Positions 1,263-22,678 of a stretch of 56,447 bases of DNA are shown one piece after another. The stretch is from IMG/VR virus record IMGVR_UViG_3300034061_006146, positions 1 through 56,447 of that record; one strand, given 5' to 3'. The notes below the pieces were generated by a model that worked only from the letters and a program-made list of their open reading frames with translations, was not told the origin of the DNA and ran no database searches. The stretch's first letter is position 1; every line of letters starts with the position of its first letter. The stretch is from a virus. The translations under genes and the position numbers were made by a program.

Positions 1263-1922
1263 ATGGACATGTTCAACACCAAAGACAGACGTAATCTTTC
1301 AATGGATGATTACATGAATCCAAAGAAACCTAGTTTCGGAGGACCAAATTCAAAGAAAGACTTTGATACATCAAAAAAAGAAACATTGAAAGGCTACCAG
1401 CGAGTAATTGACAGAAATGCCGATTTTGAAGGTGGAAAATTCAACCATAATTATGACCCAACATGGAAGGCGGTAACTCGTGACTTAATTTCAAGAACGG
1501 CAAAGAAAAAACCATTTGAACCAATGTACGCAAAACCAACAATTGCAACAGTTGACGCTGTTGAAGAAGGAAAAATCCTTCGATTTGAACAATTCGTTAA
1601 CGAAGATTTCAACATGTTCGCTGAGGCAGAAGAAGATATGCCAGCAAACGATGATATGCCAGCTAATGACGATATGCCGTCTGATGAGCCGGTAATCGAT
1701 GAAGAACAATTAGCCGCTTTAATGGAAGACTTTGGAGATGATCTTAAAGACATCATCGAAGACATCGCTGAAAAGATGGAAATGGAAAAAGAAGATCTTT
1801 GCGATCTATTATGTGCAGCAGTTAAAAAACTTTGTACAGAAGAGAATGATGAAGACGGAAATGAAGATGGCAACGAAGACGATGCAATCGGAGATGACGA
1901 CAATTCTGACGAAAACGCTTAA
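1263..1922 (+). CDS. Acidic protein with internal capsid-targeting-like motif
   Basis: 219 residues with two different halves. Residues 1-100 are basic/polar. Residues 105-114 read ILRFEQFVNE, the same F-x-x-F-V-x-E pattern seen at the N-termini of several other proteins in this window. The rest is very acidic, with a tandem ANDDMP repeat near 128-138, a predicted helical stretch (about 145-195) containing a Cys pair, and an Asp/Glu/Asn/Gly tail. Acidic, low-complexity proteins with such a motif recall T4 prohead core proteins cut by the gp21 protease after (L/I)xE-type sites. That role is inferred; no family was recognised. It is followed after 6 bases by another tagged small protein. Confidence 0.75.
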   Translation: MDMFNTKDRRNLSMDDYMNPKKPSFGGPNSKKDFDTSKKETLKGYQRVIDRNADFEGGKFNHNYDPTWKAVTRDLISRTAKKKPFEPMYAKPTIATVDAVEEGKILRFEQFVNEDFNMFAEAEEDMPANDDMPANDDMPSDEPVIDEEQLAALMEDFGDDLKDIIEDIAEKMEMEKEDLCDLLCAAVKKLCTEENDEDGNEDGNEDDAIGDDDNSDENA

Positions 1923-1928
1923 TTAAGA

Positions 1929-2276
1929 ATGATCAAGCTATTTGAACAGTGGTTAGCTGAAAAAGACGAAATGACTTCACCTGAAAAGGCGGAGCCGACT
2001 GCTTCTGCGAATCCTAATTCCTATAAACTTAGCATCTCAGCAGATGGTGCATCATTTGAAGTTGAAGGAACTAGCGATAAAGACTTCACTAGCAAAGAAG
2101 CTATCTCATTCACAGTAATAAATTCAACTAATTCAAGTATCAAGCCTAATGCAACGATAATGATTTCGCCAAAGGCCGATAAGGATGGAGATTTTGATAT
2201 TGTAGCTATTAACGACAAGAATAAACCTGAAGATGCAATGATTTATTCCGGTAAAGTAGTAAAATCAAAAGCGTAA
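1929..2276 (+). CDS. Small protein with N-terminal capsid-targeting-like tag
   Basis: 115 residues beginning MIKLFEQWLAEKDE, which fits the F-x-x-[FW]-hydrophobic-x-E pattern resembling the T4 internal-protein capsid-targeting sequence, with a possible protease site after E11. A polar linker (about 12-30) follows, then a compact domain of about 80 residues that looks like a small beta-sandwich (alternating FEVEG, AISFTVI, ATIMISP, DFDIVAI, MIYSGKVV). It is probably translated with the preceding acidic gene and ends just before a strong terminator. Suggested role: head-internal or minor virion protein. Function otherwise unknown. Confidence 0.75.
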   Translation: MIKLFEQWLAEKDEMTSPEKAEPTASANPNSYKLSISADGASFEVEGTSDKDFTSKEAISFTVINSTNSSIKPNATIMISPKADKDGDFDIVAINDKNKPEDAMIYSGKVVKSKA

Positions 2277-2304
2277 TTGCATCTCATTTAATTAATAAAA
2301 CAAG

Positions 2305-2330
2305 AAAGGGGCTTAATGCCCCTTTTTTAT
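2305..2330. terminator. Bidirectional terminator between convergent genes
   Basis: Perfect 8-bp stem AAAGGGGC / GCCCCTTT with a 5-base loop, followed by a T-run on the plus strand and preceded by an A-rich stretch (T-rich on the minus strand). It overlaps the stop codon of the minus-strand gene ending at 2313. Confidence 0.85.
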
Positions 2331-2714
2331 TGTCTCTACTCCAGCAAGTTCCCCAATTTCAAAGTCCCCGTCTATTAATTTGGGAACGAATTCGATTGTT
2401 CCATAAGCGGTATTTAAGAACTTGATTGTGTTATTGATATTACTAACACTGAGGCCAGCATTAACATAGATTATTCGGTTATACTTACGGTTCCTAACAT
2501 TAATTGCCTTATCGATTAGTTTCTTAATCTCATAGTTTATTAGGAATGCTTGGATCTTATTCGGCACTAGAATTTCGTGATCGAATTTTTCCTTTATTAT
2601 TTTATTTACATTCAGTAAATAGTCGCATTTTTGCTTTTTATTAAAAGCTTGAATGAATTGCTTTTGATCTCTTACAAAAACTATTTCAAGCTTTCTTTCT
2701 AATGAATCGATCAT
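2313..2714 (-). CDS. Unknown protein, last gene of the replication operon
   Basis: 133 residues, Lys/Ile/Asn-rich, predicted mixed alpha/beta. It has a helical first half and then short beta segments (RIIYVNAGL, YGTIEFVP, DFEIGEL). No motif or family was recognised. Its ATG overlaps the stop of the dCMP deaminase gene (ATGA-type overlap, 2711-2714), so it is translationally coupled to it. It ends inside the bidirectional terminator, making it the last gene of the long minus-strand early operon. Confidence 0.75.
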   Translation of the reverse strand: MIDSLERKLEIVFVRDQKQFIQAFNKKQKCDYLLNVNKIIKEKFDHEILVPNKIQAFLINYEIKKLIDKAINVRNRKYNRIIYVNAGLSVSNINNTIKFLNTAYGTIEFVPKLIDGDFEIGELAGVETIKKGH

Positions 2715-3184
2715 AGAGTTTCTGGGTCGATTTTTTTAACTTCAACGCCAGCTCTTCGTAAAAAGTCTAGGCCGGCGATATCTCGGTATTCTTCTAAATA
2801 CACAACTCTTTTGATTCCTGCTTGTAGAATTAATTTGCTACAATCGGTACACGGAGAGTAGGTAATATAAAGAGTCGCCCCTTCGCTACTTTGTGTTGAT
2901 TTGGCAACCTTTGCTAAAGCATTGGACTCAGCATGCAAGACATACCATTTAGTTTGGTACTCCTTAAATGATCCATCCTCGTGATTTATTGCAATTTCAC
3001 ATTCATTTTCAAAGCCGGACGGTGTTCCATTGTAACCATCGGCAATAATCGTATTATTCTTTACAATTAGAGCTCCAACCTTTTTACGGATCGCATGAGA
3101 AAGACCTGACCATGTTTGGGCCATCTTGATGTACGTGACATCGATCATGTGTTGACGCTGTATGCTGGTTGAATTAACTGACAT
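2711..3184 (-). CDS. cd: dCMP deaminase
   Basis: 157 residues of the zinc cytidine/deoxycytidylate deaminase superfamily. The catalytic HAE (H84-A85-E86) and the PCTDC zinc site (C112, C115) are both present, and the upstream GALIV...ADGYNG segment forms the substrate pocket seen in dCMP deaminases. The enzyme converts dCMP to dUMP, feeding thymidylate synthesis. It overlaps the start region of both neighbours, between a gp42/thymidylate-synthase-family gene and an unknown gene, as expected for a nucleotide-metabolism operon. Length is close to T4 Cd (193 residues) but shorter at the C-terminus. Confidence 0.9.
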   Translation of the reverse strand: MSVNSTSIQRQHMIDVTYIKMAQTWSGLSHAIRKKVGALIVKNNTIIADGYNGTPSGFENECEIAINHEDGSFKEYQTKWYVLHAESNALAKVAKSTQSSEGATLYITYSPCTDCSKLILQAGIKRVVYLEEYRDIAGLDFLRRAGVEVKKIDPETL

Positions 3185-4067
3185 TCTTATCTTCTTTTAA
3201 TTTTTCAAAAATCCATTTTAAAAGATCATTGTCTTGTTGAAATAACACAAGTTCATCAGTATGATTTGTTGCTGCTGCGAATACAATATTAAAATCTTCG
3301 CTTGAGGATCCGTCTATTTCTATCAAATCAGTAGTAATTGCAGGTAGAGTAACTGGGCCGAAGTCTGACCCTAGCATTCTTTGTGCTAAATCATAGTGTC
3401 TATCGTAAACATGATAAGAATTTGCAACATGAGTATATGTACCAAGTTCAAGATCTGGATAGATTTCCTTTAGATGAGCATGAATTTGCATCTGCAAAGA
3501 ACAAAAGAATGCTACATCGGTTGGAGTACCCCAAATAGCATCATTACTTCTCATGTAAACGCTCATGTATAACTTATTTTGACGAATGTGTAAATTCGCG
3601 TACATCGTACATACGAAATCCTTATTTGTCAAATACTGGTGATCAGGTTTGTTGAAATGAAGGATTGCTTGTCGAGTACTAGAGTCATTCATTAAACTTT
3701 GGATCGCCCATTGGTATTGAGTAATCCCATATTGATTCTTCTCATTAAAGATTAAATTGCCGTACGCTGAATTAGCGGTTCCGTCTGGGTTTTGAATGGT
3801 TTCCCAGAACTTTGCCCATTTTGAAATGAAGGCAACGTCATTACGGCCTGCGTAATACCATAGAAATTCAGCAGCAATGTACTTTTGTTGAGATCCTCTG
3901 ACCTCATTATCATACAAGCACTGAGTTGGATCATCAATTACTATTGCAACATCAAGCAATTCTTTACTTGTTGTGCCTCTAGCATTGTTAATCATCCCGT
4001 TTGTCAATAAGTGCTCTATTGACTGTTTATATGCTTGTGCAAACGTGTGCCCTTTAAATGTAATCAT
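3174..4067 (-). CDS. 42: dCMP hydroxymethylase-like (thymidylate synthase superfamily)
   Basis: 297 residues of the ThyA superfamily: E67 in AAEFLWYY, R132 in the phosphate loop (STRQAIL), catalytic C153 in DFVCTM, MRSND (R173-D176), and SYHVYDRHY (H219, Y221). At the position of the dUMP-specific Asn of ThyA (N177 in E. coli, GLPFNIA) this protein has Asp184 (GTPTDVA). Asp is the residue used by T4 gp42 (D179) to bind dCMP, and the MRSND and HVYxRH stretches also look more like gp42 than cellular ThyA. The likely reaction is therefore dCMP to 5-hydroxymethyl-dCMP. A plain dTMP synthase, or a dCMP methylase, is the alternative. A gp56-like dCTPase lies in the same strand block. Confidence 0.8.
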   Translation of the reverse strand: MITFKGHTFAQAYKQSIEHLLTNGMINNARGTTSKELLDVAIVIDDPTQCLYDNEVRGSQQKYIAAEFLWYYAGRNDVAFISKWAKFWETIQNPDGTANSAYGNLIFNEKNQYGITQYQWAIQSLMNDSSTRQAILHFNKPDHQYLTNKDFVCTMYANLHIRQNKLYMSVYMRSNDAIWGTPTDVAFFCSLQMQIHAHLKEIYPDLELGTYTHVANSYHVYDRHYDLAQRMLGSDFGPVTLPAITTDLIEIDGSSSEDFNIVFAAATNHTDELVLFQQDNDLLKWIFEKLKEDKNVS

Positions 4068-4087
4068 ACTGTGGAAATAATACTATT

Positions 4088-4095
4088 CAAATATA
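4088..4095 (-). promoter_or_regulatory. Possible host-type early promoter (-7 box)
   Basis: The minus strand reads TATATTTG, matching the Bacteroidota primary-sigma -7 consensus TAnnTTTG, about 20 bases upstream of the hydroxymethylase ATG. No clean -33 TTG is visible, so this rests on one element. Confidence 0.35.
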
Positions 4096-4122
4096 ATACT
4101 AAGAAAATGAGAAAAGGTTAGC

Positions 4123-5784
4123 CTAAACGATCTTTAGGTCAGAAAAATGATCGGTGTTTTCAACCTGGATCTTGGTATCAAAATATTCTTCAGGTAGAGG
4201 ATCATGAGAAATCACGAAAACTGTCATGCCGTACTTTTTAGCAAAGGTTTTTAACAAATCGACTACCCTAAAAATTGAATCTACGTCTAGTGAAGAAAAG
4301 ACTTCATCAAGAAAGAGAAGATTCACCTTGTTGTGTTTTAATTTAATTAATTCCAAGATACAAAGCAAAACAATGAGATTCATTTTCTTTTGTTCACCAG
4401 CGGATAGCGAGTCTGGGGAAACTTGCATTCCCAAATGAGTTATGATTGGATTGAATTCTAAATCAAACTCAAATGCAAATTTAAACTCTAAAACTTTAGC
4501 AGTCTTTAGTATCTTTTTGTTCAATAATGGAATGATTTGGCTCATTAGCATCTTTTTCATGCCATTATCTGACAAGATCATTTCCATTTCTTGAGAAACT
4601 TTCAATTTTTCTTGTCTGTCAGATAGACTAGAATTAGATGATTGAATTTCTGTCTTAATGTTATTAATTACCTCAGTCAAATGTTTATCAGAGGTTTGAT
4701 TACTCTGACGACTCAATTCAGAAACTTCACGTTTAACTGCAGTTATTTGAGCTTCAATTTGATAGTATTTTCCTTTAGCTTCGCCTGATTCATTTTCAAC
4801 AGCAGATAAAGTCTTTTCATGAGCCTTTATTCGGTCAGAGATTTCCGGAAAAGCCGATTCTTGTTCAGCCTTTTTTGCGACCAATTTATCTTTAATTTGA
4901 GAATGCACTTCATCAGTTAGGTCAGAGAGACAGTGTGGACATTTATTTTTATTGTAAATATCAAGCTTCTTTTGAATTTCAGAAATATTTGCCCTAACTG
5001 TACTTAGCTTTTCTTGCTCAGATCGAATACTCTGTCTAATTTCTGAAATTTTACCAGAAAAACTGCTAGCTTCAGTATGTGCAGTCTTTTTATCATTTAC
5101 TAATTGGTCAAGTGTGGAGTTAAGTTCAGTTATCTTTGCCTCATTGCTGGTTTTTATTTCAGACTTTAGGGCTTCAAGCTGAGAGATTGAAGATTCTAAG
5201 AGTCTCTGATTGCTAGCAATTGCCGATTCAAGCGGTAAAATTTCGCCCTTAATCTTTTTTGACTCCTCCTTTGCGACCTTTGACATGTCATTGACTATGT
5301 CTAGCCCGAATATTTTATCAATGATTTGGCGTTTATCAGCTGGACTAAGTTTAACAAAGCTCTTAAAGTCGTTTACTGATAAACTGATCGTATTTGAGAA
5401 AACATTAAAAGGAATTTTCGTTAATTCGTCCTCAATGAATTCATCTACTCTTCTTTTATCTGGAAGATTGTATTCGACTCCATCAATTGATAGTTTAGAA
5501 AAATTAGGCTCAATACCTCTTTCGATATCAATAAGTTGACCGTTTCCGGTAACAAATTTTATTTGAGTATAGGCATTCTTATTAATACGATTAGGTATTT
5601 CCTTGGTCTTACGAATTGCGGATTTACCGTAAATTGAAACGGTTAAAGCATCTGAGATTGAGGATTTTCCACTGCCGTTTTTACCTTGAACCAATACAAG
5701 GCGAGGCTCATCAGTAAATTTGAAAGTTTGTAATTTATTTCCGTATGAGCAAATGTTTCTAAAAGAAAATTCTTGTATCTTCAT
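4123..5784 (-). CDS. 46: Recombination endonuclease large subunit, gp46 (Rad50/SbcC-like)
   Basis: 553 residues, close to T4 gp46 (560). The Walker A motif GKNGSGKS is at 34-41. Two long heptad-rich coiled coils flank a zinc hook with CPHC near residue 282. The ABC signature LSAGEQKKMNL lies near 460 and Walker B LLFLDEVFSSLD near 495, followed by the H-loop VISHD. It is the ATPase subunit of the Mre11/Rad50-type complex that resects ends for recombination-dependent replication, acting with gp47 two genes upstream. A small SET-like gene is inserted between the two subunit genes, which is unusual. Confidence 0.93.
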   Translation of the reverse strand: MKIQEFSFRNICSYGNKLQTFKFTDEPRLVLVQGKNGSGKSSISDALTVSIYGKSAIRKTKEIPNRINKNAYTQIKFVTGNGQLIDIERGIEPNFSKLSIDGVEYNLPDKRRVDEFIEDELTKIPFNVFSNTISLSVNDFKSFVKLSPADKRQIIDKIFGLDIVNDMSKVAKEESKKIKGEILPLESAIASNQRLLESSISQLEALKSEIKTSNEAKITELNSTLDQLVNDKKTAHTEASSFSGKISEIRQSIRSEQEKLSTVRANISEIQKKLDIYNKNKCPHCLSDLTDEVHSQIKDKLVAKKAEQESAFPEISDRIKAHEKTLSAVENESGEAKGKYYQIEAQITAVKREVSELSRQSNQTSDKHLTEVINNIKTEIQSSNSSLSDRQEKLKVSQEMEMILSDNGMKKMLMSQIIPLLNKKILKTAKVLEFKFAFEFDLEFNPIITHLGMQVSPDSLSAGEQKKMNLIVLLCILELIKLKHNKVNLLFLDEVFSSLDVDSIFRVVDLLKTFAKKYGMTVFVISHDPLPEEYFDTKIQVENTDHFSDLKIV

Positions 5785-5786
5785 GA

Positions 5787-6278
5787 TTAAAAGTATGTAA
5801 GTTCGCGATTCGCTGCGATATCTTGAGTTGTATAAAATTTATAGAGCTTAGATTCAGAATCGTATTCCCAAGTAATGTTAGGAGTTTCACTTTGACGATA
5901 CATGGACCCAAATCCTAATAATATTGCATGAGAAGCAACGCTTAGTAATTTAGTTGGATTCGCAACCTCAATTAGAATCGCTTTAAATTGCTCCTGGGTT
6001 ATTAAACCTCGGTCTAGTCTCTCTTGTAAATCAAGCTCAGCGATCTTAGCTGCGAACTGTCTTTCCTTTTCAATTCCATCTGGGTTAACGAATAATTTTC
6101 GACCTAAATTAGAGTCATTTTTATCAATTAAGATTTGAAGTTTTTGACTGATTGGTAACCATGTACAAAATTCAACGATTGAATCTCTGTATAATGGAGC
6201 ATTTGTAAATACGCCAAATTCTTTATCATTGACTGGTTTTACGTAAAGCGTATTTAAGATCTTTGGAGCTTTATTCAT
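5787..6278 (-). CDS. SET-domain-like protein between gp46 and gp47
   Basis: 163 residues. The N-terminal part (about 20-37: EFGVFTNAPLYRDSIVEF) resembles the opening strands of SET domains. The C-terminal half has GFGSMYRQSETPN (compare the SET motif N-H-S-x-x-P-N), then a strand pair and DIAANRELTYF (compare I-x-x-G-E-E-L-T-Y). These are the AdoMet and substrate motifs of protein-lysine methyltransferases, but the canonical Asn-His is replaced by Arg-Gln, so activity is uncertain. The start overlaps the gp47 stop by 8 bases and the end is 3 bases from gp46, so it is co-translated with the nuclease. The target is unknown; the partner subunits are an obvious guess. Confidence 0.65.
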   Translation of the reverse strand: MNKAPKILNTLYVKPVNDKEFGVFTNAPLYRDSIVEFCTWLPISQKLQILIDKNDSNLGRKLFVNPDGIEKERQFAAKIAELDLQERLDRGLITQEQFKAILIEVANPTKLLSVASHAILLGFGSMYRQSETPNITWEYDSESKLYKFYTTQDIAANRELTYF

Positions 6279-7383
6279 GAGATCCTTCCTGTTTTACGAT
6301 GTTATGAATCTCAACGAACTTTCTAGCAAGATCAGTCTTAAATGTTTGAGAATAGTCCTTTGATTTAATAAAGCTCTTGAAAATATCAATTACGTTGAAT
6401 TGATCTTCGGGATTAAAGTCAGAACCAGTCGAGTCTTCTTTGACTTGATCAACATAGGTAAAGAATTCAATTTTTCGGTGGGTTGATTTAGAGACAGCCT
6501 CAATGAATCGAGTAACTGGAAACTTATTGACGAAATTAACGCTTATCATTACATCAACGAAAGCATTATTTAAACTTGAAACTACCTGATCAGCCGGCAT
6601 CTCTAATAGCTCATAAATATCAAACTTCTTATAAACTGGAGATTGAGTATTTTCAATGAATCTTTCTGAAATTGAGTCATTAGTAAGGGTTAATTCATAA
6701 AATCCTTTAACATTATCTCTATCTCCACGATCCATCTGATATGGGGTTCCAGTATAGAGCACATTTTTAAATTCCTGACGGTGGTGAATGTGGCCAGCGT
6801 AAACTCTTTTATAAGAAGTTAACATGTCAACTTCTATTCCATGCTCGACTTTTGTCCACTTGTTAAATCTCAATCCTTTAATGTCTGCATGGCAAACTAT
6901 ATACTCACAAAGATCTTGATGATCAGTTATTATCTGATTGATACGATTCGTGTCTTCAACCCAAGGTAACATTAAAAAATTATGAGTTCCATTAATTGTC
7001 AGAATTTCAGGATTCTCAAAAACATGAATGTTATCAGCGATATGAGAAATTGCTTTAAGCGAGTGAACTACGTTTCGATCTTTATAGTACACGTCATGAT
7101 TTCCAATAATAATGTAGATTCCACGCTTAAATTTTTCAGATAGCCTCTTGAAAATGGTTAGGGCTTCATCATGAATTCTAACATTGATTGACTCTCGAGA
7201 ATGAAAAATGTCTCCTTCTAAAAAGAGAACATCGCGGTCTTCATCAAAGTCTTCATCAACCTTATTCAATAAAAAGTCCAGTAGAAAGTCTTTTTGAATT
7301 TGAAGCCATTCTACTGAATTGTTTTTTATTCCAAGGTGAAGATCTCCAACTAAAGTTATTTTTCTAATGTTAGTTAGTTTCAT
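6271..7383 (-). CDS. 47: Recombination endonuclease small subunit, gp47 (Mre11/SbcD-like)
   Basis: 370 residues (T4 gp47 is 339). The metallophosphoesterase motifs occur in order: GDLHLG (D14, H16), EGDIFHSR (D58), IIGNHD (N95, H96, D97), a single His in IVCHADIKG, and AGHIHHRQ. The segment LYTGTPYQMD is typical of Mre11-type nucleases. It should form the dimanganese exo/endonuclease that works with gp46. The ATG follows directly after the stop of the upstream acidic-protein gene, and its own end overlaps the SET-like gene. Confidence 0.93.
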   Translation of the reverse strand: MKLTNIRKITLVGDLHLGIKNNSVEWLQIQKDFLLDFLLNKVDEDFDEDRDVLFLEGDIFHSRESINVRIHDEALTIFKRLSEKFKRGIYIIIGNHDVYYKDRNVVHSLKAISHIADNIHVFENPEILTINGTHNFLMLPWVEDTNRINQIITDHQDLCEYIVCHADIKGLRFNKWTKVEHGIEVDMLTSYKRVYAGHIHHRQEFKNVLYTGTPYQMDRGDRDNVKGFYELTLTNDSISERFIENTQSPVYKKFDIYELLEMPADQVVSSLNNAFVDVMISVNFVNKFPVTRFIEAVSKSTHRKIEFFTYVDQVKEDSTGSDFNPEDQFNVIDIFKSFIKSKDYSQTFKTDLARKFVEIHNIVKQEGSHE

Positions 7384-8061: not shown

Positions 8062-8077
8062 ATTATTTGTGGTTTTT

Positions 8078-9601: not shown

Positions 9602-9604
9602 AGT

Positions 9605-11744: not shown

Positions 11745-12426
11745 TTGTAATTGTCTTCTTTTTGGTGTCACCAGCCAATGCTTTCTTCATGGTTTTCTTG
11801 ATAGCATCAACAGTTACGTTATTATTTATATAGTTTGATAGTTTGGTCAAAAACTCTTCCTTGTTCTTTGAGTTTTGATACATCATCTTCAAGAGAGTTT
11901 TACTAGGCAGCTTAATTCTGACTGACAAGTTTAAATCGGTGTCCTCGAGTGAAAACATTCCAAATAGATCTCCAGGATCGACATCTAACTGAAATTTTGA
12001 TGGAGCTTGTACAATTTGAGCGGGCTGACCACTAAGAATAGGTTGAGGAGCTTGTGCCTTAATTTCATCTACAAATTCAGTAGGGATATCGCTGGAAACT
12101 TTAACTTCTTCTGATAGAGATGGAATGTAGTTGATTGATCGAATTTCATCAAACGATAATGGATCCTGTCCGTCAGTTAGCATCATTAAATTTGATGAAA
12201 CCATATCGGTGTCAATTTGAGAACCATCTGATAACATTGCAATGAATCTACCATTTCTGCCAGGAACCACGTCCCTAACCTCGACTACCTTGCCCATTTT
12301 GTTTGGATCATTTGTTTTTATCCACTGAAATTTATTAGACTGAAAGCTTGATTTTACAGCAATCAGGGTGTCTATATCATATCCGTTCATAATTTTATGT
12401 AATATTTTTTTAAGATTATTTAGCAT
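11737..12426 (-). CDS. Unknown protein downstream of the polymerase fragment
   Basis: 229 residues. The first 110 residues include a possible SH3-like beta segment (MGKVVEVRDVV, GRFIAMLSDGSQID). A Pro/Gln-rich linker follows around 125-150, then a helical C-terminus ending in a Lys-rich tail. The ATG overlaps the polymerase stop by 11 bases. It contains none of the polymerase motifs B or C, so it is not the missing C-terminal part of gp43. A polymerase-associated role is possible by position only. Confidence 0.7.
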   Translation of the reverse strand: MLNNLKKILHKIMNGYDIDTLIAVKSSFQSNKFQWIKTNDPNKMGKVVEVRDVVPGRNGRFIAMLSDGSQIDTDMVSSNLMMLTDGQDPLSFDEIRSINYIPSLSEEVKVSSDIPTEFVDEIKAQAPQPILSGQPAQIVQAPSKFQLDVDPGDLFGMFSLEDTDLNLSVRIKLPSKTLLKMMYQNSKNKEEFLTKLSNYINNNVTVDAIKKTMKKALAGDTKKKTITNE

Positions 12427-13789
12427 CTAGTTGCTCTTCTAATTTTTTCATTTCGCTCTTTGTGTCAACACGACCGTTATACAAACGAGTTAAGATTGTG
12501 CGAGCTGCTGAATCGAAATTTTTAGTAAATAGAGTATTGTTTTTTGTTAGAATTTGACCTTCAGTTGGCTGTTGTTCAGGTTTAATTTTTCCTAAATATG
12601 CATCAGGAGAAATGTTAAACTGAATTTGGATGTTTGGGTACATTGATGCGAAGTCAAAACACGACACATACTTATAATATCCAGGTTCAGGTTTTGCAAC
12701 GTATGCACCATCATAGGTTGCATCTTCTTCAAGATCGCGTCTATCATTTGCCATGTATAAACCACGCTCTAAGAATTCTCTACACATTAAAGTCTCAGTA
12801 ATGAATACTGCTGAGAATACTTTTGAGACGTCAACTCGTGCAAATTTAGAAATTGCAAAGGCCACATCAAGTAGACCAAGTTTGTCTTCTATTAATTTAA
12901 TAAGAATTGTATCAATAATGTTATACTTAATGAAGTTTTCAACGTCTTGTTGAGCTTCTAGCATTGTTGCATATTCACTATGTAATTTAGTGGTTCCAAG
13001 CACAAGATTAGCAATATAATCTAACTTATAATTTTCAACAACCTTATATGGTTTAGTGTTCATGAAAACTTCCATGTAATCTAGAAGTCCCATGTGAATT
13101 GGCATCTTTGCTTTACCGATCAGTGTTTTAGACGGCATTTGGGCCATTGGCTCTATTCCTAAATTCTTACAACGATTGATCAAATACAACCAGTCAAAGC
13201 CAATTACGTTCCAGCCGGTTAAGAATGGAATTTTTGGAAGTACTTTGTGAAAGAAAGTAGTCATCATCTCTTCCTCTGTTTCAAAGAACAAATACTTAAG
13301 AGTGAAATCTTGACCATGCGCTTTGAAATACTCGTTAACTTCATCTTGCATTTGAGAAATTACTGGAGCCTCTAAGCTCTTCATGGTTGACATTACGAAA
13401 CAGATATTATCCTCATTCACAAACGTTATTAAATTAACTGGCATTGCAGCTTTATTTGGATCTGGGAAATCTGTTGATAATAGCTGAATCTCAATATCCA
13501 GATAGTACTTTTTTGGACTATCATCTGAATAGATTGAATCTAACTCAGTTTGATCTAATCTGGTTTGGGTTAATTCTTCGAGCCTAAATCGGCTTAGCCA
13601 CTTACCTTGAACTTTCTTTAGGAACTTTCCATCCCAATTACGATTCTCAGTTGGAGTAGGAGTTAGGTTCCAGTTATAAAGATCATGCGGTAGAATTGGT
13701 TTTTTCATGAATCCAATTGTTCCATCGGGCTTATAATACGAAATGACTAATGACGAGTCTTCCGTGTGAAATTCAGTACTTACAATCAT
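12416..13789 (-). CDS. 43: Family B DNA polymerase, N-terminal half only (split gp43)
   Basis: 457 residues. Exonuclease motifs are complete: ExoI YYLDIEIQ (DxE), ExoII TGWNVIGFDWLYL, ExoIII YNIIDTILI. Polymerase motif A follows as CFDFASMYPN. The protein then stops in the fingers region (TRLYNGRVDTKSEMKKLEEQ) before motif B (Kx3NSxYG) and motif C (DTD). T4 gp43 is 898 residues, so about half is missing, and no other gene in the window supplies it. Split gp43 genes are known in some T4-like phages, so a separate C-terminal subunit outside the window is the best explanation. Truncation by mutation is the alternative, but the intact coupled operon argues against decay. Confidence 0.88.
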   Translation of the reverse strand: MIVSTEFHTEDSSLVISYYKPDGTIGFMKKPILPHDLYNWNLTPTPTENRNWDGKFLKKVQGKWLSRFRLEELTQTRLDQTELDSIYSDDSPKKYYLDIEIQLLSTDFPDPNKAAMPVNLITFVNEDNICFVMSTMKSLEAPVISQMQDEVNEYFKAHGQDFTLKYLFFETEEEMMTTFFHKVLPKIPFLTGWNVIGFDWLYLINRCKNLGIEPMAQMPSKTLIGKAKMPIHMGLLDYMEVFMNTKPYKVVENYKLDYIANLVLGTTKLHSEYATMLEAQQDVENFIKYNIIDTILIKLIEDKLGLLDVAFAISKFARVDVSKVFSAVFITETLMCREFLERGLYMANDRRDLEEDATYDGAYVAKPEPGYYKYVSCFDFASMYPNIQIQFNISPDAYLGKIKPEQQPTEGQILTKNNTLFTKNFDSAARTILTRLYNGRVDTKSEMKKLEEQLDAK

Positions 13790-14366: not shown

Positions 14367-14416
14367 TACAGACGCGACTAGCCCAAGTTCAGAAAGTATG
14401 AATTTGGACTTAATGC

Positions 14417-14430: not shown

Positions 14431-14452
14431 TTCAAAATAATACGCAAAAGCG

Positions 14453-17400: not shown

Positions 17401-17545
17401 TGAAGTTCTTGAAAATAATGCAGGTATTATTGATATTATTGTTGATTTTCCAAGAGGTATTCACAAGTTCATCAATCGTATTACAATCACAAGAGCTGGT
17501 GGCCAATTGGCTTCTAACTCTACTGGATTTACGCCTTCATTCTAA
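14453..17545 (+). CDS. 18: Tail sheath protein, gp18-like, enlarged
   Basis: 1030 residues against 659 in T4 gp18. The N-terminus (residues 1-100, with GVYTVEIDES, STGRLVIGSSKKGP, FALNLLPV) and the C-terminal 300 residues (AFGSG-like GFASGERGGIA, FLEPAGFNLIVRRRGFGVMIF, NVHVREALVTIERDIERILLNFLF, then GIIDIIVDFPRGIHKFINRITIT) are the typical sheath core that interlocks subunits and contracts. The excess lies mainly in the middle (roughly 320-660), which looks beta-rich and surface-like. Two late promoters precede it, and a strong terminator follows 22 bases after the stop, so it is a monocistronic late unit. Confidence 0.9.
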   Translation: MAEKLNLNRFKSSGVYTVEIDESTSLSLPLSTGRLVIGSSKKGPINSVVLINDLRALTAVYGENDSKLEKNGSFFHRTIEIALRQGPVFALNLLPVADTDVAYFTTFNTESASNNSNWAANLYQDSLSRFYNTQKLWFADVDAVNKYKNIKLGDSFPATGTADRDANKLLSLVNLSKKAVTAWVRVADTTGYDIKVKEYYKLLGDKVEIPEFLHPDDYISDYFVEIAVVEGDWTDYIRLSKDPVYAQYFNPSGIELSKMNDFLSLREVSVVNRTIGAMIPDFRDLTGAVSAIDTLFNRKFSQGGVFCAIDYKKVDMIDLTNATFDSGSSTEPAAEQRIDLVGYGFDELNTTDVTKQLYTVDNGISTVNPVALIDVMSYRKSAGYEYYFGLDDVDYNSTYAAGETYTVQKLSGPSNLPTGDKYIVATIGSKLYTAWANGFIKTGDTLHYLAGPSATPTTLYLSTDGLVKTQSTGQIKYIEFYAYQDAAFQNQVDAQYITDNVISPAPAYLHIKSTNVTQFKADFDLTDSNYFITTGANNYRFFSPNQVVFTLNPSLYGNTAKKETANAGYSYDSTKRNLIDSFFKVGQWVKAGIIKDANGDQVIRNRSLRIRSVYAQLVTVNYGPSNLPVKTLKYTVTVDTAADANITGIDITPAVLGGNAGLSVYKGIKNYVTDLRGFYVPAMQVDESGLYPNGTADRQNTILDYMFNDTNIASTLADNETLDYRYIIDSYEGQIWSASKQQLAQLAANHGKALAILNAPSFAQYERSIDPSFIDVNTNLVSAEYISTGGNLSTNPSYTFGFASGERGGIAISSYTAYFMPNLVIFEGGRNKSIPPAAYVANTYMKKYSSGNTFSIVAGKRGIITEPEITGVEYDLTNGDRDFLEPAGFNLIVRRRGFGVMIFSNNTGYQKVKSALNNVHVREALVTIERDIERILLNFLFDFNDTTTRLRVKTLVKNYLTAVQDARGIATFDVIFDDSNNGTEVLENNAGIIDIIVDFPRGIHKFINRITITRAGGQLASNSTGFTPSF

Positions 17546-17567
17546 AAGACGAACTCTATTTAATAAC

Positions 17568-17594
17568 AAAAGGACTCCATTGGAGTCCTTTTTT
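17568..17594 (+). terminator. Strong terminator after tail sheath
   Basis: Perfect 12-bp inverted repeat AAAAGGACTCCA / TGGAGTCCTTTT with a single central T, followed by more T. A classic intrinsic terminator for the sheath gene. The A-run on the left arm also makes it usable on the minus strand. Confidence 0.9.
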
Positions 17595-17599
17595 GTTTA

Positions 17600-17650
17600 G
17601 GGCCGTCCGGAAACAGCATTCCACCACTCGGTTTAAGTCCGAGAACTTTA
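17600..17650. other. Hairpin-containing gap, tRNA-fragment-like
   Basis: Between the sheath terminator and the nucleotidase stop lies a more GC-rich stretch with the hairpin CTCGG-TTTAAGT-CCGAG (17626-17642), a 5-bp stem and 7-base loop like a T-arm. No matching acceptor stem or anticodon arm was found on either strand, so it is not called as a tRNA. It may be the 3' end structure of the minus-strand operon. Confidence 0.4.
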
Positions 17651-18247
17651 GTCTTCAACTGGGCCTACCATCTCTTCAACTACACGAATCGTATCAGTTG
17701 AATCGTTATGCAGGACTCCAATACCACCAGCTTTGGTCCATTTTTCCAATTTTCGAGAAAAGTCGTCAATTAGAACTGGCTCTTTGCCCAATAGAGTTTT
17801 AGCAGGTTGTACGTACTCATGCTTATGATTTGCCAAGATGAATCTAGTTTCTTTTGTAAAATCGGCTGGGTCCTTCACTGCCTCTTGATCAATTCCCAAA
17901 TGGCGTTTTACCCATTTAGTCTTACCCGCAAAACAGCCTGGGTGTTTACTTGGTGAAGATAGGATGATTGGATCGTACCGCTTAAGATAGTCCCATAATT
18001 CTCTACCGTCTTTCATCCACTGTAAATTTTCCCAAAAAGATTCTCCAAGCTCGTCAATTAACGGCCATAATGAATCTTTGCCATGGGCCTTTTCATAGTC
18101 CTTTGGCGAAAGTTTTTCAGTATTACTAGGCAGTTCAATAAAGCCTCTATTGAAATCAACTAAGACTCCGTCTAGATCACAAAAAATCCTAAAATCATTT
18201 GACTTTTCTTCATTCACGAACTGTGTGAAACTTTTAAGATTGCTCAT
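17648..18247 (-). CDS. HAD-family 5'(3')-deoxyribonucleotidase-like, with N-terminal tag
   Basis: 199 residues. Residues 1-15 (MSNLKSFTQFVNEEK) form a tag of the F-x-x-F-V-x-E type shared with other genes here. The catalytic domain starts at about 20: CDLDGVLVDF (D24, D26), motif II PIILSSPSK, then KTLLGKEPVLIDDFSRKLEKW with the late acidic motif. DLDGVLVDF is typical of deoxyribonucleotidases and related small HAD phosphatases, which dephosphorylate dNMPs. Its ATG overlaps the GroES stop by 14 bases. There is no alternative start after the tag, so the tag belongs to the protein. If the tag works as in T4 internal proteins, the enzyme may be packaged in the head. Confidence 0.8.
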   Translation of the reverse strand: MSNLKSFTQFVNEEKSNDFRIFCDLDGVLVDFNRGFIELPSNTEKLSPKDYEKAHGKDSLWPLIDELGESFWENLQWMKDGRELWDYLKRYDPIILSSPSKHPGCFAGKTKWVKRHLGIDQEAVKDPADFTKETRFILANHKHEYVQPAKTLLGKEPVLIDDFSRKLEKWTKAGGIGVLHNDSTDTIRVVEEMVGPVED

Positions 18248-18566
18248 TTAATTCAAATTGTGTTTCTTGATCCTTATTGATTATGGCTAAGAGATCATTC
18301 GCCATTACTAGGTGATAATTACTACCGTCCCATTTTACATCAAGTCCAGAATATCGTTGGTACAAAACTCTGTCCCCAACCTTAACTGGGCATTTTGAAT
18401 TATCTGCGACAAGATGGCCTAGTCCGATTACTTTACCTGTGTTAGGTCTTTTTCTTGCATCCACCGATAATACAATGCCGGTTTCTGTTTTAGTTTCAAC
18501 TGAATCAGGTAAAACTAGGATTCTTTCAAATAAAGGAATAAATCCGTTTTGAATGTCTATGCTCAT
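18234..18566 (-). CDS. groES: GroES-like co-chaperonin
   Basis: 110 residues of the Cpn10 family: opening IPLFERILVLPD, a mobile-loop region with TETGIVLSVDA, GKVIGLGHLV, VKVGDRVLYQRYSGLDVKWDGSNYHLV and a final ANDLLAIIN match GroES in order. T4 replaces GroES with the unrelated-looking gp31 to fold its capsid protein; here the protein is clearly GroES-like in sequence. Its ATG overlaps the FEN stop by one base (TAATG). A GroEL gene lies about 13.5 kb away on the same strand. The C-terminal 12 residues are an acidic/polar extension compared with E. coli GroES (97 residues). Confidence 0.92.
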   Translation of the reverse strand: MSIDIQNGFIPLFERILVLPDSVETKTETGIVLSVDARKRPNTGKVIGLGHLVADNSKCPVKVGDRVLYQRYSGLDVKWDGSNYHLVMANDLLAIINKDQETQFELNEQS

Positions 18567-19675
18567 TAGCTCTTGTAATTTTTTTTAAATTTATAGTAAT
18601 TAAACTTACGTCTTACTGTTAAATCTACGCTTTGTTTGATCGATTCTAATACTTCAGTTGGAAAAACTGCTGTGCTTAAACGGATTAGTGTCTTGTTACG
18701 ATTAAGGTTATTCTCGATCGTCTTCCATTCACCTGGTTCCTTTATTTTTAGAACGTCACATGTAACTTCACGTAAAACATCAATGAAACCCTGATCACCT
18801 GAATCAATTAGAGATGTGATGTCTTTCCAATTGTAAGATTCACGCAAATGCTCAATTATTTTAGTCACCTTGGCCGGAGTCATTTTTGGATGAACTCTTG
18901 GAATATTATCTGAGGAATCACCAGCTAGACATTTGGTTATAATGTCTAGAGTTGGGTCAACTGTTAGATGTTTATAGTCCTTTTGTGTCAAATCGTTAAT
19001 TATGTTAACGATTGCAGAGTTATCGATTGACTCAATGTCAAAATTGAATAAATCGATCTCGGCTTCTTGGACTTGACCAAAATCTTCAGTTGTGTAGATC
19101 TTTTTATACTTAGTCATTTGTTTAGGCATTATCAGAATCACTTTACGCTTGTTGCTTTCAAGTAATTGAGTTAAATCCTTATCTACTGACCAAATACAAA
19201 TATCTTCTCTTAGGTTTTCGCAAATGTAAGCGATTAGATCATCGCCTTCCGCTCCTGGAACTCGGTTAACAACTATCCCATATTCTTCAGAGATTGTGTT
19301 TAAAATTTCAGTTTGGAAGTATTCAAAGAAAAGATAGATCTTATCGTCGTATTTACGTTGGCCCTTATAAGAAAAATCTCCCTCTCCATGAGTTTCAAAA
19401 TGCTCCTTAATGTATTTCTTTCTCCAACTCTTAGAGTCAAAAACAAAAAATACAGAACTGATGTTTTCCTTAAAAGGAGCAAGGATACTTCCGAGGTAAT
19501 TTACTGAAAAAGCTCTGAATGTATCCTTGCTTACCTGCTTAAGCATGAATTTATCGTCATTCAACAGATCAGAGACGTAATACTTTTCGCCCACGCGCTT
19601 GTCATTAGCTAGGATATTCTTCGCTATGCTAACGGCTACGTTAAGAAAGGCATTTCCATCAATGATTAAATTCAT
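18566..19675 (-). CDS. rnh: FEN-family 5'-3' exonuclease / RNase H
   Basis: 369 residues (T4 Rnh is 305). FEN/5'-nuclease motifs: LIIDGNAFLN at the N-terminus, VFFVFDSKSWRKK, a basic bridge region, VPGAEGDDLIAYI (acidic metal ligands), WSVDKDLTQLL and LAGDSSDNIPRVHPKMTPAKVTKII with the helix-hairpin-helix. It removes RNA primers and flaps during lagging-strand synthesis. The order SSB, small gene, FEN matches T4 (32, 59, 33, dsbA, rnh) in outline. It is followed with one-base overlap by GroES. Confidence 0.88.
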   Translation of the reverse strand: MNLIIDGNAFLNVAVSIAKNILANDKRVGEKYYVSDLLNDDKFMLKQVSKDTFRAFSVNYLGSILAPFKENISSVFFVFDSKSWRKKYIKEHFETHGEGDFSYKGQRKYDDKIYLFFEYFQTEILNTISEEYGIVVNRVPGAEGDDLIAYICENLREDICIWSVDKDLTQLLESNKRKVILIMPKQMTKYKKIYTTEDFGQVQEAEIDLFNFDIESIDNSAIVNIINDLTQKDYKHLTVDPTLDIITKCLAGDSSDNIPRVHPKMTPAKVTKIIEHLRESYNWKDITSLIDSGDQGFIDVLREVTCDVLKIKEPGEWKTIENNLNRNKTLIRLSTAVFPTEVLESIKQSVDLTVRRKFNYYKFKKNYKS

Positions 19676-19682
19676 GTTTGTT

Positions 19683-19976
19683 TTATTTAGGTTGTTCTAC
19701 ATTAGGTTGAGGTTTGCTCAACGTTTTAATAGCCTTTGCGATTAGCTCAGCTTCATCTAAGTTAAACACTCCTTTTGCTTGGCAATGGTTAGCTGATGAA
19801 ATTAGCACAAGCACTGCATGTTCGGGAGTTAGGTTTGCCAAGAATTTTTCGTAATCAGCTTGGTCAGTGTAACTTATTGAAGAAAGTAATGTTGCAATCG
19901 GCTGAGGATTACCCTCAGCTTGAGGAGTTTCAACGATAGTTTCTTCTACTGTAGTTGGGTTTTTCTTATTTGCCAT
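19683..19976 (-). CDS. Small unknown protein between SSB and FEN genes
   Basis: 97 residues: a polar Thr/Glu/Pro N-terminal tail (1-30), then a compact helical domain (about 35-88: YEKFLANLTPEHAVLVLIS...LDEAELIAKAIKTL), and a short Pro/Gln tail. No family was recognised. In T4 the genes between 32 and rnh are 59 (helicase loader), 33 (late co-activator) and dsbA. Because the window contains a gp55-like factor, a gp33-like partner must exist somewhere and this is a positional candidate, without sequence support. Confidence 0.7.
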   Translation of the reverse strand: MANKKNPTTVEETIVETPQAEGNPQPIATLLSSISYTDQADYEKFLANLTPEHAVLVLISSANHCQAKGVFNLDEAELIAKAIKTLSKPQPNVEQPK

Positions 19977-19991
19977 GTTATTTGGATATTT

Positions 19992-21050
19992 TTATAGATC
20001 TGCGAATAAATCGTCTAGGTCATCAGATTTTGCCGGAGCTGATTTTGCTGGAGCGGCCTTTGCTGCTGGAGCAGGATCACTTGCGAAATCATCATCGAGA
20101 TCGATTGACATTGAACTTGATTTTGCGGCTGGCGCTGGAGAGAATTCAATATCTTCTCCCATTGGAGCCTGAGAACGATTTACTGGTTTTGAGTTAGTAA
20201 AGTGCTTCTTCATTCTCTCGTCCTTTGTGTTTGCAACCAAGTTTTCAATGATTTGCTTGTAAGGAACGATTGCTTTAATGTAGTCTGCAACCTTTTCATA
20301 CTCAGAGTCGGTCCATTCTTTCAAGAAGTATTGGCTCATGTCTGGCGAATTCTTTTTAAAGTATTCACTAGTGAATTGCATTACCTTAGGATCAGTAGAA
20401 ACTGGAATTTCTTTACCTCCATGAGTAATGATTAATGGGCTAACTTCATTCATGAATTTACTTGAGCTGAAATCTCTCCATGCTTTAGTTTTACGCTTGA
20501 TAACCAATACGAAATCCTTACCTTGTGTAAGAGAGAATGGATTGATTTTTTGAGTCGTTACTAATTCAGACTCTGGATTAATTTCTTGCTGAATCAAGTT
20601 ATCAATTGTGTAACCGTATGAGTACACTTTGATTTGACCTTCCAAGTTAGGAAACTGAGGGTCTTTCTTGATGTAGACACAAGAATAGTAATTGTAATAA
20701 CGATTGAAGTACTTTTGAATTTCCTCAACGATTTGAGGTTCCTCGTTTTTCAAACGTTTCAACTCTAGGTCTAACGTCCAAAGAATTGATGAAGCTCCCG
20801 TTGTTGAAGGGCAGTCCACATACAATTTTTCATTGGTTAGCGGGTTGATTAGCTTAGCTGCATACTTTTTGTAGCGGCTTTTAGACGGATCCGTTACCCA
20901 TGGGATAAAACGAATTACCGATTTGTAAATACCGTTCTGACCTTGGTCTGGACCGGGATTGTACATGTTCTCGTCAACTTTACGAGCAGCAGATGATGAT
21001 TTTCCTGAGAAATCATCGAGATTGAGATTGAATAGATCTTCCATGTTCAA
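19992..21050 (-). CDS. 32: Single-stranded DNA-binding protein, gp32-like
   Basis: 352 residues (T4 gp32 is 301). A short N-terminal segment is followed by the gp32-type core: YKSVIRFIPW, KYAAKLINPLTNEKLYVDCP, FNRYYNYYSCVYIKKDPQFPNLEGQIKVYSYG, INPFSLTQGKDFVLVIKRK. The C-terminus is an Ala/Pro/Ser linker ending in the acidic tail DDLDDLFADL that recruits partners. The Cys3His zinc ligands of T4 gp32 are not evident (only two widely spaced Cys). It coats ssDNA in replication and recombination. The gene has its own upstream gap with a terminator separating it from the Hc1-like gene. Confidence 0.9.
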   Translation of the reverse strand: MNMEDLFNLNLDDFSGKSSSAARKVDENMYNPGPDQGQNGIYKSVIRFIPWVTDPSKSRYKKYAAKLINPLTNEKLYVDCPSTTGASSILWTLDLELKRLKNEEPQIVEEIQKYFNRYYNYYSCVYIKKDPQFPNLEGQIKVYSYGYTIDNLIQQEINPESELVTTQKINPFSLTQGKDFVLVIKRKTKAWRDFSSSKFMNEVSPLIITHGGKEIPVSTDPKVMQFTSEYFKKNSPDMSQYFLKEWTDSEYEKVADYIKAIVPYKQIIENLVANTKDERMKKHFTNSKPVNRSQAPMGEDIEFSPAPAAKSSSMSIDLDDDFASDPAPAAKAAPAKSAPAKSDDLDDLFADL

Positions 21051-21104
21051 AAATGATTTAATTTATAAAATTGTACTAAAAAACCGTAAGTAGTTTCAAA
21101 AAAT

Positions 21105-21131
21105 AAGGGCGAGTTTTTTAGACCCGCCCTT
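21105..21131 (-). terminator. Terminator after the Hc1-like gene
   Basis: 7-bp stem AAGGGCG / CGCCCTT with a 13-base loop. On the minus strand it is followed by a T-rich run. It closes the late cluster at 21156-22678 before gp32. Confidence 0.75.
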
Positions 21132-21155
21132 TAATGTGAACTTTTTATTAAGATA

Positions 21156-21347
21156 TTAAGCTTTAGGCTCGTTAGTCTTTGCTTCTTGAACGTGAGTTCT
21201 GCCGGCTTGACAAACTGCTTTAATATCTTGCAAAAGTTTACGAGTTCTAGTTCCAGCAGACTTGTTACCTTTTTCGTAGAACTTCACAGTTTCGTTTTCA
21301 AGTTGAGAAACTGCTTCTTTTAATTCAGTTAACCATTGTGGTGTCAT
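21156..21347 (-). CDS. Histone H1 / Hc1-like small DNA-binding protein
   Basis: 63 residues. The central VKFYEKGNKSAGTRTRKLL closely resembles the Hc1-type bacterial histone-H1-like family found widely in Bacteroidota (E-K-G-N-K-x-A-G-T-R-x-R-K). These proteins are small, helical and basic and bind or condense DNA. The C-terminus is polar. It lies downstream of two genes whose cluster starts at a late-promoter motif and is followed by a terminator, so late expression is likely. A role in genome condensation or packaging, or in manipulating the host nucleoid, is inferred. It has one Cys (CQAG) near residue 46. Confidence 0.8.
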   Translation of the reverse strand: MTPQWLTELKEAVSQLENETVKFYEKGNKSAGTRTRKLLQDIKAVCQAGRTHVQEAKTNEPKA

Positions 21348-21401
21348 AATTTCAAAGATTTTTTGTATCTTATATAATAAAAATTCACCCGGTTTTAAAT
21401 T

Positions 21402-22127
21402 TTAATAAACTTTGTTGGAAAATTTGGCTTCTGGATAGACTTGTTTTGTGAATTTTATCCATGCCCTAATGACTTTATTGAATTGTTCGTTAGTTAGCAA
21501 GCCAGACTTAGTGAAAGGTCTCAGATAGAGTTCAAACTCTTGATCTATTGGAATTCTCTTTCGGACGGCGGATGCATGCATACCGGCAACCATTGCTGGA
21601 ATTTCGTCAGACAGTAAAAAATACTTATATGAGGACTCTGCGCCCGATCTAACCTTTCCTGGCGTTTTAATTATGTGGCCAGTTCTACGGTTGATTCCGG
21701 TTTGGAGCAGATGTTCTATTTCGTGCCTAACGTATTCAACCAATTTATGATTAAGCGTCTCATAACTTAGAGGTTCTGCATCTGGGCTAATGTATAGAAC
21801 TAATTCTAGTTCAGGTTCATCGTAATCTGAAGCATTTGGGATGTAAGCGTTCGCATCTAGTGCAAAACCGTTATCTTCAAAATTTAAAACTTCCCAAGGT
21901 AGAGTTTTAAAGTGAGCTGATCTTCGTGGATTAAATTGAACTACTCTTTTAACTATAAAATTTAGACTAAACTCCAATGGATCAGAATACGTGAATTCTT
22001 TGTGAATTGCTTTTCCTGGCTTGGTACCAGCAGTACTTTTCACAATCGAGAAAAGATCGTGAGCTATTGCAATGGCAAGAGAATCAAACTTTGATTCATA
22101 TATGAAGTTACTAAAGCGCTTTATCAT
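21402..22127 (-). CDS. HExxH metalloprotease-like protein with N-terminal tag
   Basis: 241 residues starting MIKRFSNFIYESKF, which fits the F-x-x-F-I-x-E tag with a possible protease site after E11. A zinc-protease motif is present as VRHEIEHLLQ (H135, E136, H139), followed about 35 residues on by DEIPAMVAGMHA, where E175 could be the third ligand as in gluzincin-type enzymes. The N-terminal domain is mixed alpha/beta. The ATG overlaps the stop of the upstream Pro-rich gene (ATGA). No named peptidase family was recognised. Head-internal location is inferred from the tag; a substrate cannot be guessed. Confidence 0.7.
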   Translation of the reverse strand: MIKRFSNFIYESKFDSLAIAIAHDLFSIVKSTAGTKPGKAIHKEFTYSDPLEFSLNFIVKRVVQFNPRRSAHFKTLPWEVLNFEDNGFALDANAYIPNASDYDEPELELVLYISPDAEPLSYETLNHKLVEYVRHEIEHLLQTGINRRTGHIIKTPGKVRSGAESSYKYFLLSDEIPAMVAGMHASAVRKRIPIDQEFELYLRPFTKSGLLTNEQFNKVIRAWIKFTKQVYPEAKFSNKVY

Positions 22128-22678
22128 TTATGGGTTACGAAAATTAGGTCAAGCTTAGAAGTAGACGGAATTAATTTAGTATCATAATCAACGTCAACAT
22201 CGCCTCGATCTTTACCTAGTTTATTTGAGGTTGCGGCTCCTTTTAATTTATCAAATAGAGTCTTTTCAATCTGTTTTTTACCGCTTACTGCTTGAGACAA
22301 ATCATCTTTGTTTGTATCTAGCTTGGAATCAGTGATCCATTTGTCAAGATCAGCTTGATTGATTTCGTATTCTTTGTATCTCTTTACTCCGCCGCCATCA
22401 GCATACTTAGAGTGCCAAGGTTTATCGGCATCTAAAAATACAACTTTAAATACTGAAGTTGTAGCGGTTGGAGCAGGCGCATTTGGATCAGGGGGTAGTG
22501 TTGCACCGGCTAACGGGTCAGACATTGGCGCTCCTCCTAAATCAGGAGGTGGCGGTGGAGGTGATGATAACGGATCAGCCTCTGGAGCTGGAGCAGGTTC
22601 AGCAGCTGGTTCCGGGGCTGGAGCTGTCTCTTCTTCCTCCAGTAATAACTTGAATTTGTCAAATGATAGTATTTCCAT
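22124..22678 (-). CDS. Pro/Ala-rich protein with N-terminal tag
   Basis: 184 residues from the ATG at 22678. An upstream in-frame ATG at 22723 would place the start inside the terminator and upstream of the late-promoter motif, so it is rejected. The start MEILSFDKFKLLLEEEE is a variant of the F-x-x-F tag. Residues about 18-75 are Pro/Ala/Glu low-complexity with a poly-Pro run. The C-terminal 105 residues form a folded-looking basic domain (SVFKVVFLDADKPWHSKYADG...). Function unknown; the architecture suits a virion or head-internal protein. It is translationally coupled to the metalloprotease-like gene. Confidence 0.7.
   Translation of the reverse strand: MEILSFDKFKLLLEEEETAPAPEPAAEPAPAPEADPLSSPPPPPPDLGGAPMSDPLAGATLPPDPNAPAPTATTSVFKVVFLDADKPWHSKYADGGGVKRYKEYEINQADLDKWITDSKLDTNKDDLSQAVSGKKQIEKTLFDKLKGAATSNKLGKDRGDVDVDYDTKLIPSTSKLDLIFVTHK

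Follow-up and report, generated by a model that had tools for sequence, protein, structure and literature searches.

Similar N-terminal tags on many proteins of T4-type phages resemble the capsid targeting sequence of T4

Why would unrelated genes of one virus begin with nearly the same short peptide? This question is raised by the IMG/VR virus record IMGVR_UViG_3300034061_006146, which was analyzed as a whole (56,447 bases; hereafter the window). By its matches to a sheath family (phrog_34521) and a tail tube family (phrog_45), the window is classed as a fragment of a T4-type myovirus; no near DNA relative of positions 1-25000 was detected among 50,697 phage records. A sequence-only reading had noted that four genes begin with a similar segment, that a fifth protein contains it internally, and that it resembles the capsid targeting sequence of T4 internal proteins. 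We located all five segments: three are strict N-terminal copies (genes starting at 1929 on the plus strand and at 18247 and 22127 on the minus strand), the N-terminus encoded from 22678 (minus strand) is only a variant, and the internal copy lies in the gene starting at 1263 (plus strand). On the patterns described below, we consider it quite probable that the segment acts in the manner of the T4 capsid targeting sequence, as a leader that directs proteins into the head and is cleaved off by the prohead protease. Our best reading of the tag system is that this known T4 mechanism has been greatly expanded.

Open reading frames (ORFs) were called by a simple longest-ORF rule, and those of at least 60 residues were counted. 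The strict tag motif was F-x-x-[FWY]-[ILV]-x-E within the first 20 residues; expected counts were derived from the motif rate in the rest of the same proteins, supplemented by within-protein shuffles. In the window, three of 43 ORFs carried the motif versus 0.15 expected (P 5e-4). However, a count of 3 was also the maximum in 1000 within-protein shuffles (mean 0.10), so that the window by itself does not decide the matter. Sheath relatives encoded in IMG/VR (best 80 of 139 stretches kept, representing 79 loci) were collected, and seven relatives were scanned. The motif was present in 24 of 294 ORFs in G006 (0.98 expected), 15 of 308 in G005 (1.12), 13 of 311 in G002 (1.06), 10 of 213 in G008 (0.75), 6 of 239 in G007 (0.81), 5 of 128 in G009 (0.61) and 4 of 63 in G015 (0.36). 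Shuffle maxima were 4 (G002, G005 and G006), 3 (G007, G008 and G009) and 2 (G015), and control C-terminal ends of 26 residues contained 0 or 1 motif per genome. An N-terminal excess is present in all seven relatives. It was also found without any motif: the largest groups of similar N-termini had 18 members in G002, 25 in G005, 32 in G006, 12 in G008, 12 in G016 and 35 in LR756500, with shuffles giving at most 4. The largest groups were small elsewhere (3 in G007 and G009, 2 in G015 and 1 in the window). A relaxed motif occurred in 10 of 228 ORFs of G016 versus 1.5 expected. With counts in the relatives exceeding both background and shuffles, chance occurrence of the motif was ruled out.

After correction of starts, and with the window included, 86 ORFs bore the motif, with 82 distinct N-termini and mature parts that formed 45 clusters. 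The tag is indeed shared by unrelated proteins, and these 45 clusters rule out paralogy, though 15 ORFs of G006 form one cluster. The commonest residues were M-K-x-[IL]-K-x-F-[ETS]-Q-F-[IVL]-[NS]-E, followed by E, S, A or N, and the aromatic residues were conserved as strongly as the Glu. Shared N-termini could instead be copied DNA, such as a promoter-plus-start cassette spread by recombination, with no role of their own, and copying does occur in G006, where 15 ORFs have in common both the tag and a conserved stretch beyond it. However, codon agreement among tags of unrelated genes was barely above the prediction from codon usage (e.g., 0.53 versus 0.50), pointing to selection on the peptide, and the peptide was conserved while the remaining protein dropped to 38% identity. 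Copying without function is therefore largely disfavored, and we regard it as very improbable. In the G006 ORFs (L125-L137), the tag and the further conserved stretch (..KDIFIPRRLKERWDDLL..) are followed by parts of differing length; by sequence, this stretch may be either a second shared module or a sign of a paralogous family.

In an independent scan, IMG/VR was searched at the DNA level for sequences encoding MKHIKLFE[QE]F; it covered at least 120 stretches, and all its counts are lower bounds. At least 139 occurrences in at least 123 distinct proteins were detected, with 17 of the occurrences truncated by the end of a contig. Removal of 8 proteins shorter than 40 residues left at least 115 proteins in at least 65 clusters. 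The predicted cleavage Glu, which lies outside the query, followed in at least 98 of these 115 proteins (background 8.5%); [ILV]xE was found at the predicted place in at least 87 and [ILVM]xE within residues 11-20 in at least 100.

The resemblance to T4 was confirmed in the T4 record, in which IPII and IPIII both begin MKTYQEFIAE, the start that the sequence-only reading had given for IPIII. A matrix built from the present tags found its best site in both proteins at this segment (8.3 bits). The capsid targeting sequence of IPII and IPIII goes back to Mullaney and Black 1996, as cited in passages of PMC9026906 and PMC5694885. According to the relevant passages of PMC9026906, residues 4 and 7 of the T4 leader serve targeting and residues 8 and 10 processing, gp21 cleaves after L/I-x-E, the internal proteins co-purify with the scaffold protein gp22, and the leader alone carries foreign proteins into the head. 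T4 residues 4, 7, 8 and 10 correspond to the two aromatics, the [ILV] residue and the Glu of the tag. Like the T4 leaders, the tag is N-terminal, 10-13 residues long and of the form aromatic-x-x-aromatic-hydrophobic-x-Glu, in genomes with a gp21-type protease. Unlike in T4, there are 10-24 strictly tagged ORFs per genome (G002, G005, G006 and G008), and the tags occur on enzymes and on proteins without known function. Ejection proteins of SPN3US and phiKZ, as described in parts of PMC5694885, are likewise located in the head and made with N-terminal propeptides that a protease related to gp21 removes by cleavage after x-x-E, and many proteins are ejected; however, these phages belong to another group, the cut is at A-x-E, and most propeptides are far longer than 10-20 residues. 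The relaxed motif was also carried in T4 by gp61.1 and by one ORF overlapping 61.4, in addition to IPII and IPIII. With its start MKTFKEFIKE, the hypothetical gp61.1 (NC_000866 18966-19130, minus strand, 54 residues) may be targeted to the head and have been overlooked as such.

If the tag is a head-targeting leader, does a suitable protease accompany it? The S77 gp21-type prohead protease domain (PF03420) was detected over cut-off in 14 of 15 relatives. The open frames containing it span 650-689 residues, with matches at the positions of T4 gp21 His85 and Ser140, which we take to be the catalytic residues. The protease also matched phrog_207 (E 1.5e-37), and in G015 its ORF adjoins the major head protein gene. 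The window stops short of the protease region as placed in G015, hence the protease is not seen in it. Among 19 scan contigs chosen for length, 13 had the protease, including 10 of 10 contigs of at least 130 kb and three of nine shorter ones; three of these ten long contigs (G028-G030) look like one phage, and the cases are not all independent. The co-occurrence suggested by the sequence-only reading thus holds for most relatives and scan contigs. G028, G029 and G030 (L507, L508 and L506) also have a second short S77-like frame of 132 residues, over cut-off and far from the core ORF. A DnaJ-like ORF, judged by eye, directly precedes the protease-core ORF in G015 (23990-24883), G005 (66478-67356), G002 (122778-123683, minus strand) and G007 (51831-52826, plus strand).

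Units of 14 residues, most commonly I-x-Y-S-N-Y-L-A-E-N, follow one another in the middle of the protease ORF (approximately residues 295-445), and their consensus [YF]xx[YH][LVI][AG]E resembles the tag. In each of the seven genomes, this ORF contained 7-9 [YF]xx[YFWH][ILVM]xE sites, versus at most 2 in any other ORF. Their spacings were multiples of 14, except that G005 and G006 each had a single stray site, and shuffling the array region gave at most 2 sites. A looser test, requiring only two spacings divisible by 14, was passed by 14 of 14 protease loci of relatives, by all 13 protease-bearing scan contigs, and by eight of nine further IMG/VR loci (the frame of the ninth was not located). 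The C-terminal part of the fused ORF had no profile match to a scaffold; its likeness to gp22 consists of position, a low-confidence predicted helix and richness in [ILV]xE. Such richness was general in core ORFs, with 36 sites versus 10.3 expected in G002 and 20 versus 4.5 in T4 gp22. When the fusion ORF was modeled, the array came out as helical, but the prediction is unreliable (mean pLDDT 49.9). The protease-core ORF is similar to T4 gp21 and gp22 in its S77 domain with matched His85 and Ser140, in its [ILV]xE content and, in G015, in its place beside the major head protein gene. It differs from them in being one fused ORF with a 14-residue array, whereas the genes are separate in T4, S-CAM7 and SNUABM_47. 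PTm1, Lak-A1 and MA9V-2 have a fused ORF without this array: that of PTm1 contains different units (16 residues by eye) and that of Lak-A1 an acidic linker.

Other phages contained related tags or none. In LR756500 (first 400 kb), the strict motif was absent, and a relaxed motif occurred in 21 of 562 ORFs versus 3.5 expected, with the tag MKYIKxYxxFLxE. LR745206 (first 180 kb) had an N-terminal group of 18, mostly MKYLK-type. Five F-type tags were found among 261 ORFs of MA9V-2 versus 0.85 expected, with the form MKTFxxFINE; its core ORF of 1207 residues contained 12 [ILV]NE[SA] sites where 0.63 were expected, and ranked first among the ORFs of this phage (next 8). In PAU, 20 of 288 N-termini fell into a motif-free group, MKT[LI]xxL[YF]E, with shuffles giving at most 2; a P value for this motif is circular, since the motif was drawn from PAU, and the motif-free cluster is the valid test. 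At PAU 110719-113735 (plus strand), five ORFs with PAU-type tags flank the protease gene, unlike the scattered tags of the window relatives. No excess of F-type tags was detected in PTm1, MaF61, S-CAM7, PAU or Lak-A1 (the last over its first 220 kb, with the standard code and with TAG read through).

How might the tag and the repeat array work together? Beyond the tag, its N-terminal excess and conservation, the protease and the array, all read directly from sequence, the proposed steps of docking, cleavage, presence in the virion and injection are ones that we infer. The two aromatic residues of the tag would anchor the protein on the internal core while the prohead is assembled. Cleavage by the S77 prohead protease, behind the Glu of [ILV]-x-E, would follow, and the mature protein would be left in the head with the DNA and ejected at infection. 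The cargo tag would behave like a single core repeat, loosely copied: it would dock among the repeats, and the enzyme that cuts them would also cut it. That such docking depends on likeness to the repeats is a tentative hypothesis, as the likeness of tag and repeat could alternatively come from a shared cleavage preference. It is possible, if not favored, that the core serves as an address book: a protease-scaffold polyprotein of tandem tag-like repeats with a cleavage site in every one, a single detached N-terminal repeat of which would suffice for co-assembly and for release by this protease, with lineages using their own dialects (F/YxxF[IL]xE here, and the PAU and MA9V-2 forms given above) to preload counter-defense or host-takeover enzymes, including Acb1-type anti-CBASS proteins.

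If the motif were only a protease-recognition helix, tag and repeats would be alike as both are substrates of the S77 protease, and other parts of the proteins would determine packaging. Every dialect contains the [ILV]-x-E part, but the aromatic part is variable, as in PAU and in the Acb1-like leaders described below, and the general [ILV]xE richness of core ORFs, as of T4 gp22, also fits this idea. But the aromatics are conserved as strongly as the Glu, and, in the passages of PMC9026906 cited above, the T4 leader alone packages foreign proteins and aromatics 4 and 7 target rather than cleave; we consider this explanation unlikely. Quite unlikely, in our view, is that the tag directs proteins elsewhere (tail, baseplate, replication compartment or membrane) or marks them for turnover. 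Tagged genes are scattered and not grouped with head genes, and the internal-tag protein adjoins the tail tube gene, as such a destination might have it, but the match to the T4 head leader, the gp21-type cleavage triplet and the presence of repeats resembling the tag within the protease-core ORF all speak for the head.

Several observations weigh against a head-targeting leader of the T4 kind. S77 proteases occur without a tag excess in PTm1, S-CAM7 and Lak-A1, and therefore the protease alone predicts little. The repeats are unlike the tag in being mostly Tyr-first (66 Tyr and 9 Phe in 79 units) and in having Ala/Gly before the Glu, with the leading hydrophobic residue one position nearer than in the tag, and the tag-rich LR756500 retains just 3 such sites in its array. 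In the seven relatives, tagged genes were not gathered around the protease, except in G006: those within 8 kb numbered 0 of 13 in G002, 0 of 18 in G005, 4 of 24 in G006, 0 of 7 in G007, 1 of 11 in G008, 1 of 6 in G009 and 1 of 4 in G015. The matrix score of the T4 tag was surpassed by many unrelated internal sites, and the excess of the relaxed motif over the whole T4 genome was not significant (4 versus 1.5 expected, P 0.07).

Within the window, the canonical tag MIKLFEQWLAE (1929..1961, plus strand), with the predicted cut after its last Glu, is kept in the G015, G009 and G008 relatives; its protein (1929..2276, plus strand, 115 residues) had no PHROG match and no Pfam match over cut-off. 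The canonical tag MSNLKSFTQFVNE (18209..18247, minus strand) is kept in the G015, G009, G008, G002 and G005 relatives. It precedes a deoxyribonucleotidase-like (HAD) protein of 199 residues (17648..18247, minus strand), an assignment made by the sequence-only reading and supported by phrog_2643 (E 1.8e-23, residues 17-190), with Pfam NT5C below cut-off (19.3 bits versus 24.8). The enzyme profile starts at residue 17, downstream of the tag. The third canonical tag, MIKRFSNFIYE (22095..22127, minus strand), has F5, F8 and E11 invariant in 14 aligned sequences, and residues 1-12 had pLDDT below 50 in a structure model (mean 63.8). Its protein (21402..22127, minus strand, 241 residues) had been proposed as an HExxH metalloprotease. 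The motif is conserved as HE[IT]EH, which makes a metallopeptidase possible; no PHROG or Pfam profile matched it, and the model had no PDB match at E<=0.001.

The fourth N-terminus, MEILSFDKFKLLLEE at 22678, does not fit the strict motif, having K at the [ILV] place and the Glu two residues later. The variant tag MEILSFDKFKLLLE (22637..22678, minus strand), with an aromatics-to-Glu distance two residues longer, has the counterparts MEILNFSKFKLLLE, MRILEFKEFRRLLLE and, at the start of the G007 relative, MKHIKPYTQLLLE. The protein (22124..22678, minus strand) has a Pro/Ala-rich stretch behind the tag and no PHROG or Pfam match. The start of a longer ORF at 22723 is probably not the real one, because the G002 and G005 relatives start at the 22678 codon. 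The internal copy ILRFEQFVNE (1575..1604, plus strand) is present at residues 105-114, as had been reported, of a protein with an acidic C-terminal half and no PHROG or Pfam match (1263..1922, plus strand), next to the tail tube gene (660-1244, phrog_45 E 1.8e-7). Its motif FEQFVNE (residues 108-114) recurs in G015, G009 and G002 and is FDQFVNE in G008 and FRKFVNE in G007; the relative in G005 does not have the strict motif. Cleavage triplets of the window tags are LAE, IYE, LLE and, at 18247, VNE, in which Val departs from the strict T4 L/I-x-E rule.

What would the tags carry? Pfam matches over cut-off were obtained for five of 20 tagged proteins (NUDIX, phage lysozyme, NTP_transf_2, VanY and CHAP), the other 15 having none, and for five of ten picked by eye (2_5_RNA_ligase2/Acb1, cytidylyltransferase-like, AAA_33/zeta toxin, GNAT and ATP-grasp). 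Among the enzymes predicted as cargo are thus nucleotidyltransferase and cell-wall enzymes, besides NUDIX and Acb1-like ones. Ten tagged proteins were compared with PHROGs, where two matched, both to families without known function, and ten with defense models, yielding 4 weak matches to candidate families. One tagged protein (L375:982-1518) matched Pfam Acb1 at 28.3 bits (cut-off 27), in competition with 2_5_RNA_ligase2 at 30.1, and has the HxT motifs HCTL at 60 and HMTV at 135. By profile and HxT motifs, it is predicted to fit the Acb1 (anti-CBASS) family. It carries a leader, whereas the T4 Acb1 ORF has no such leader by eye.

A search for Acb1-like proteins (best 80 of 83 loci, to which the following counts refer) gave 65 distinct proteins, 64 of them with at least two HxS/T motifs and 21 with a loosened tag motif. 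Leaders were at most 12 residues long in 16 and longer in 49, of which 42 were distinct; all 42 contained [LIVMF]xE, versus 23.3 in shuffles. Some members of the family are leaderless and others have several different leaders, with dialects including MKHIKLFEEFxxE, MIKLxDLIxE and MELNEQLTKIKTMMGINE. The G002 Acb1-like relative, below the family cut-off, starts MLKSFSQFVTGLFE.

If the tag is a head-targeting leader, an N-terminal code would allow injected proteins of giant T4-type phages, most of them unannotated, to be read from sequence, and some anti-immunity enzymes would arrive with the DNA rather than being made after infection. The repeat array would offer a concrete idea of what the capsid targeting sequence attaches to. 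No description of these tags or of the array in these phages was found in the open-access literature, a result that argues only weakly for their absence.

Next to the gene for the major head protein, small ORFs rich in Lys begin with the Tyr-type tags MSNTVLNYAQFLLE, MSKSVLSYGEFLLE and MKSVLSYEEYLFE (G002 118558-118923, G015 19692-20057 and G005 62245-62604, all on the minus strand) and are candidates for internal or core proteins. The window phage also appears to encode GroES (18234-18566, minus strand; Pfam Cpn10 over cut-off) and a GroEL-like chaperonin (32066-33649, minus strand, by eye). In addition, the DNA polymerase gene looks split, by eye, into two distant ORFs (window 12416-13789, minus strand; G015 53630-55267, plus strand).

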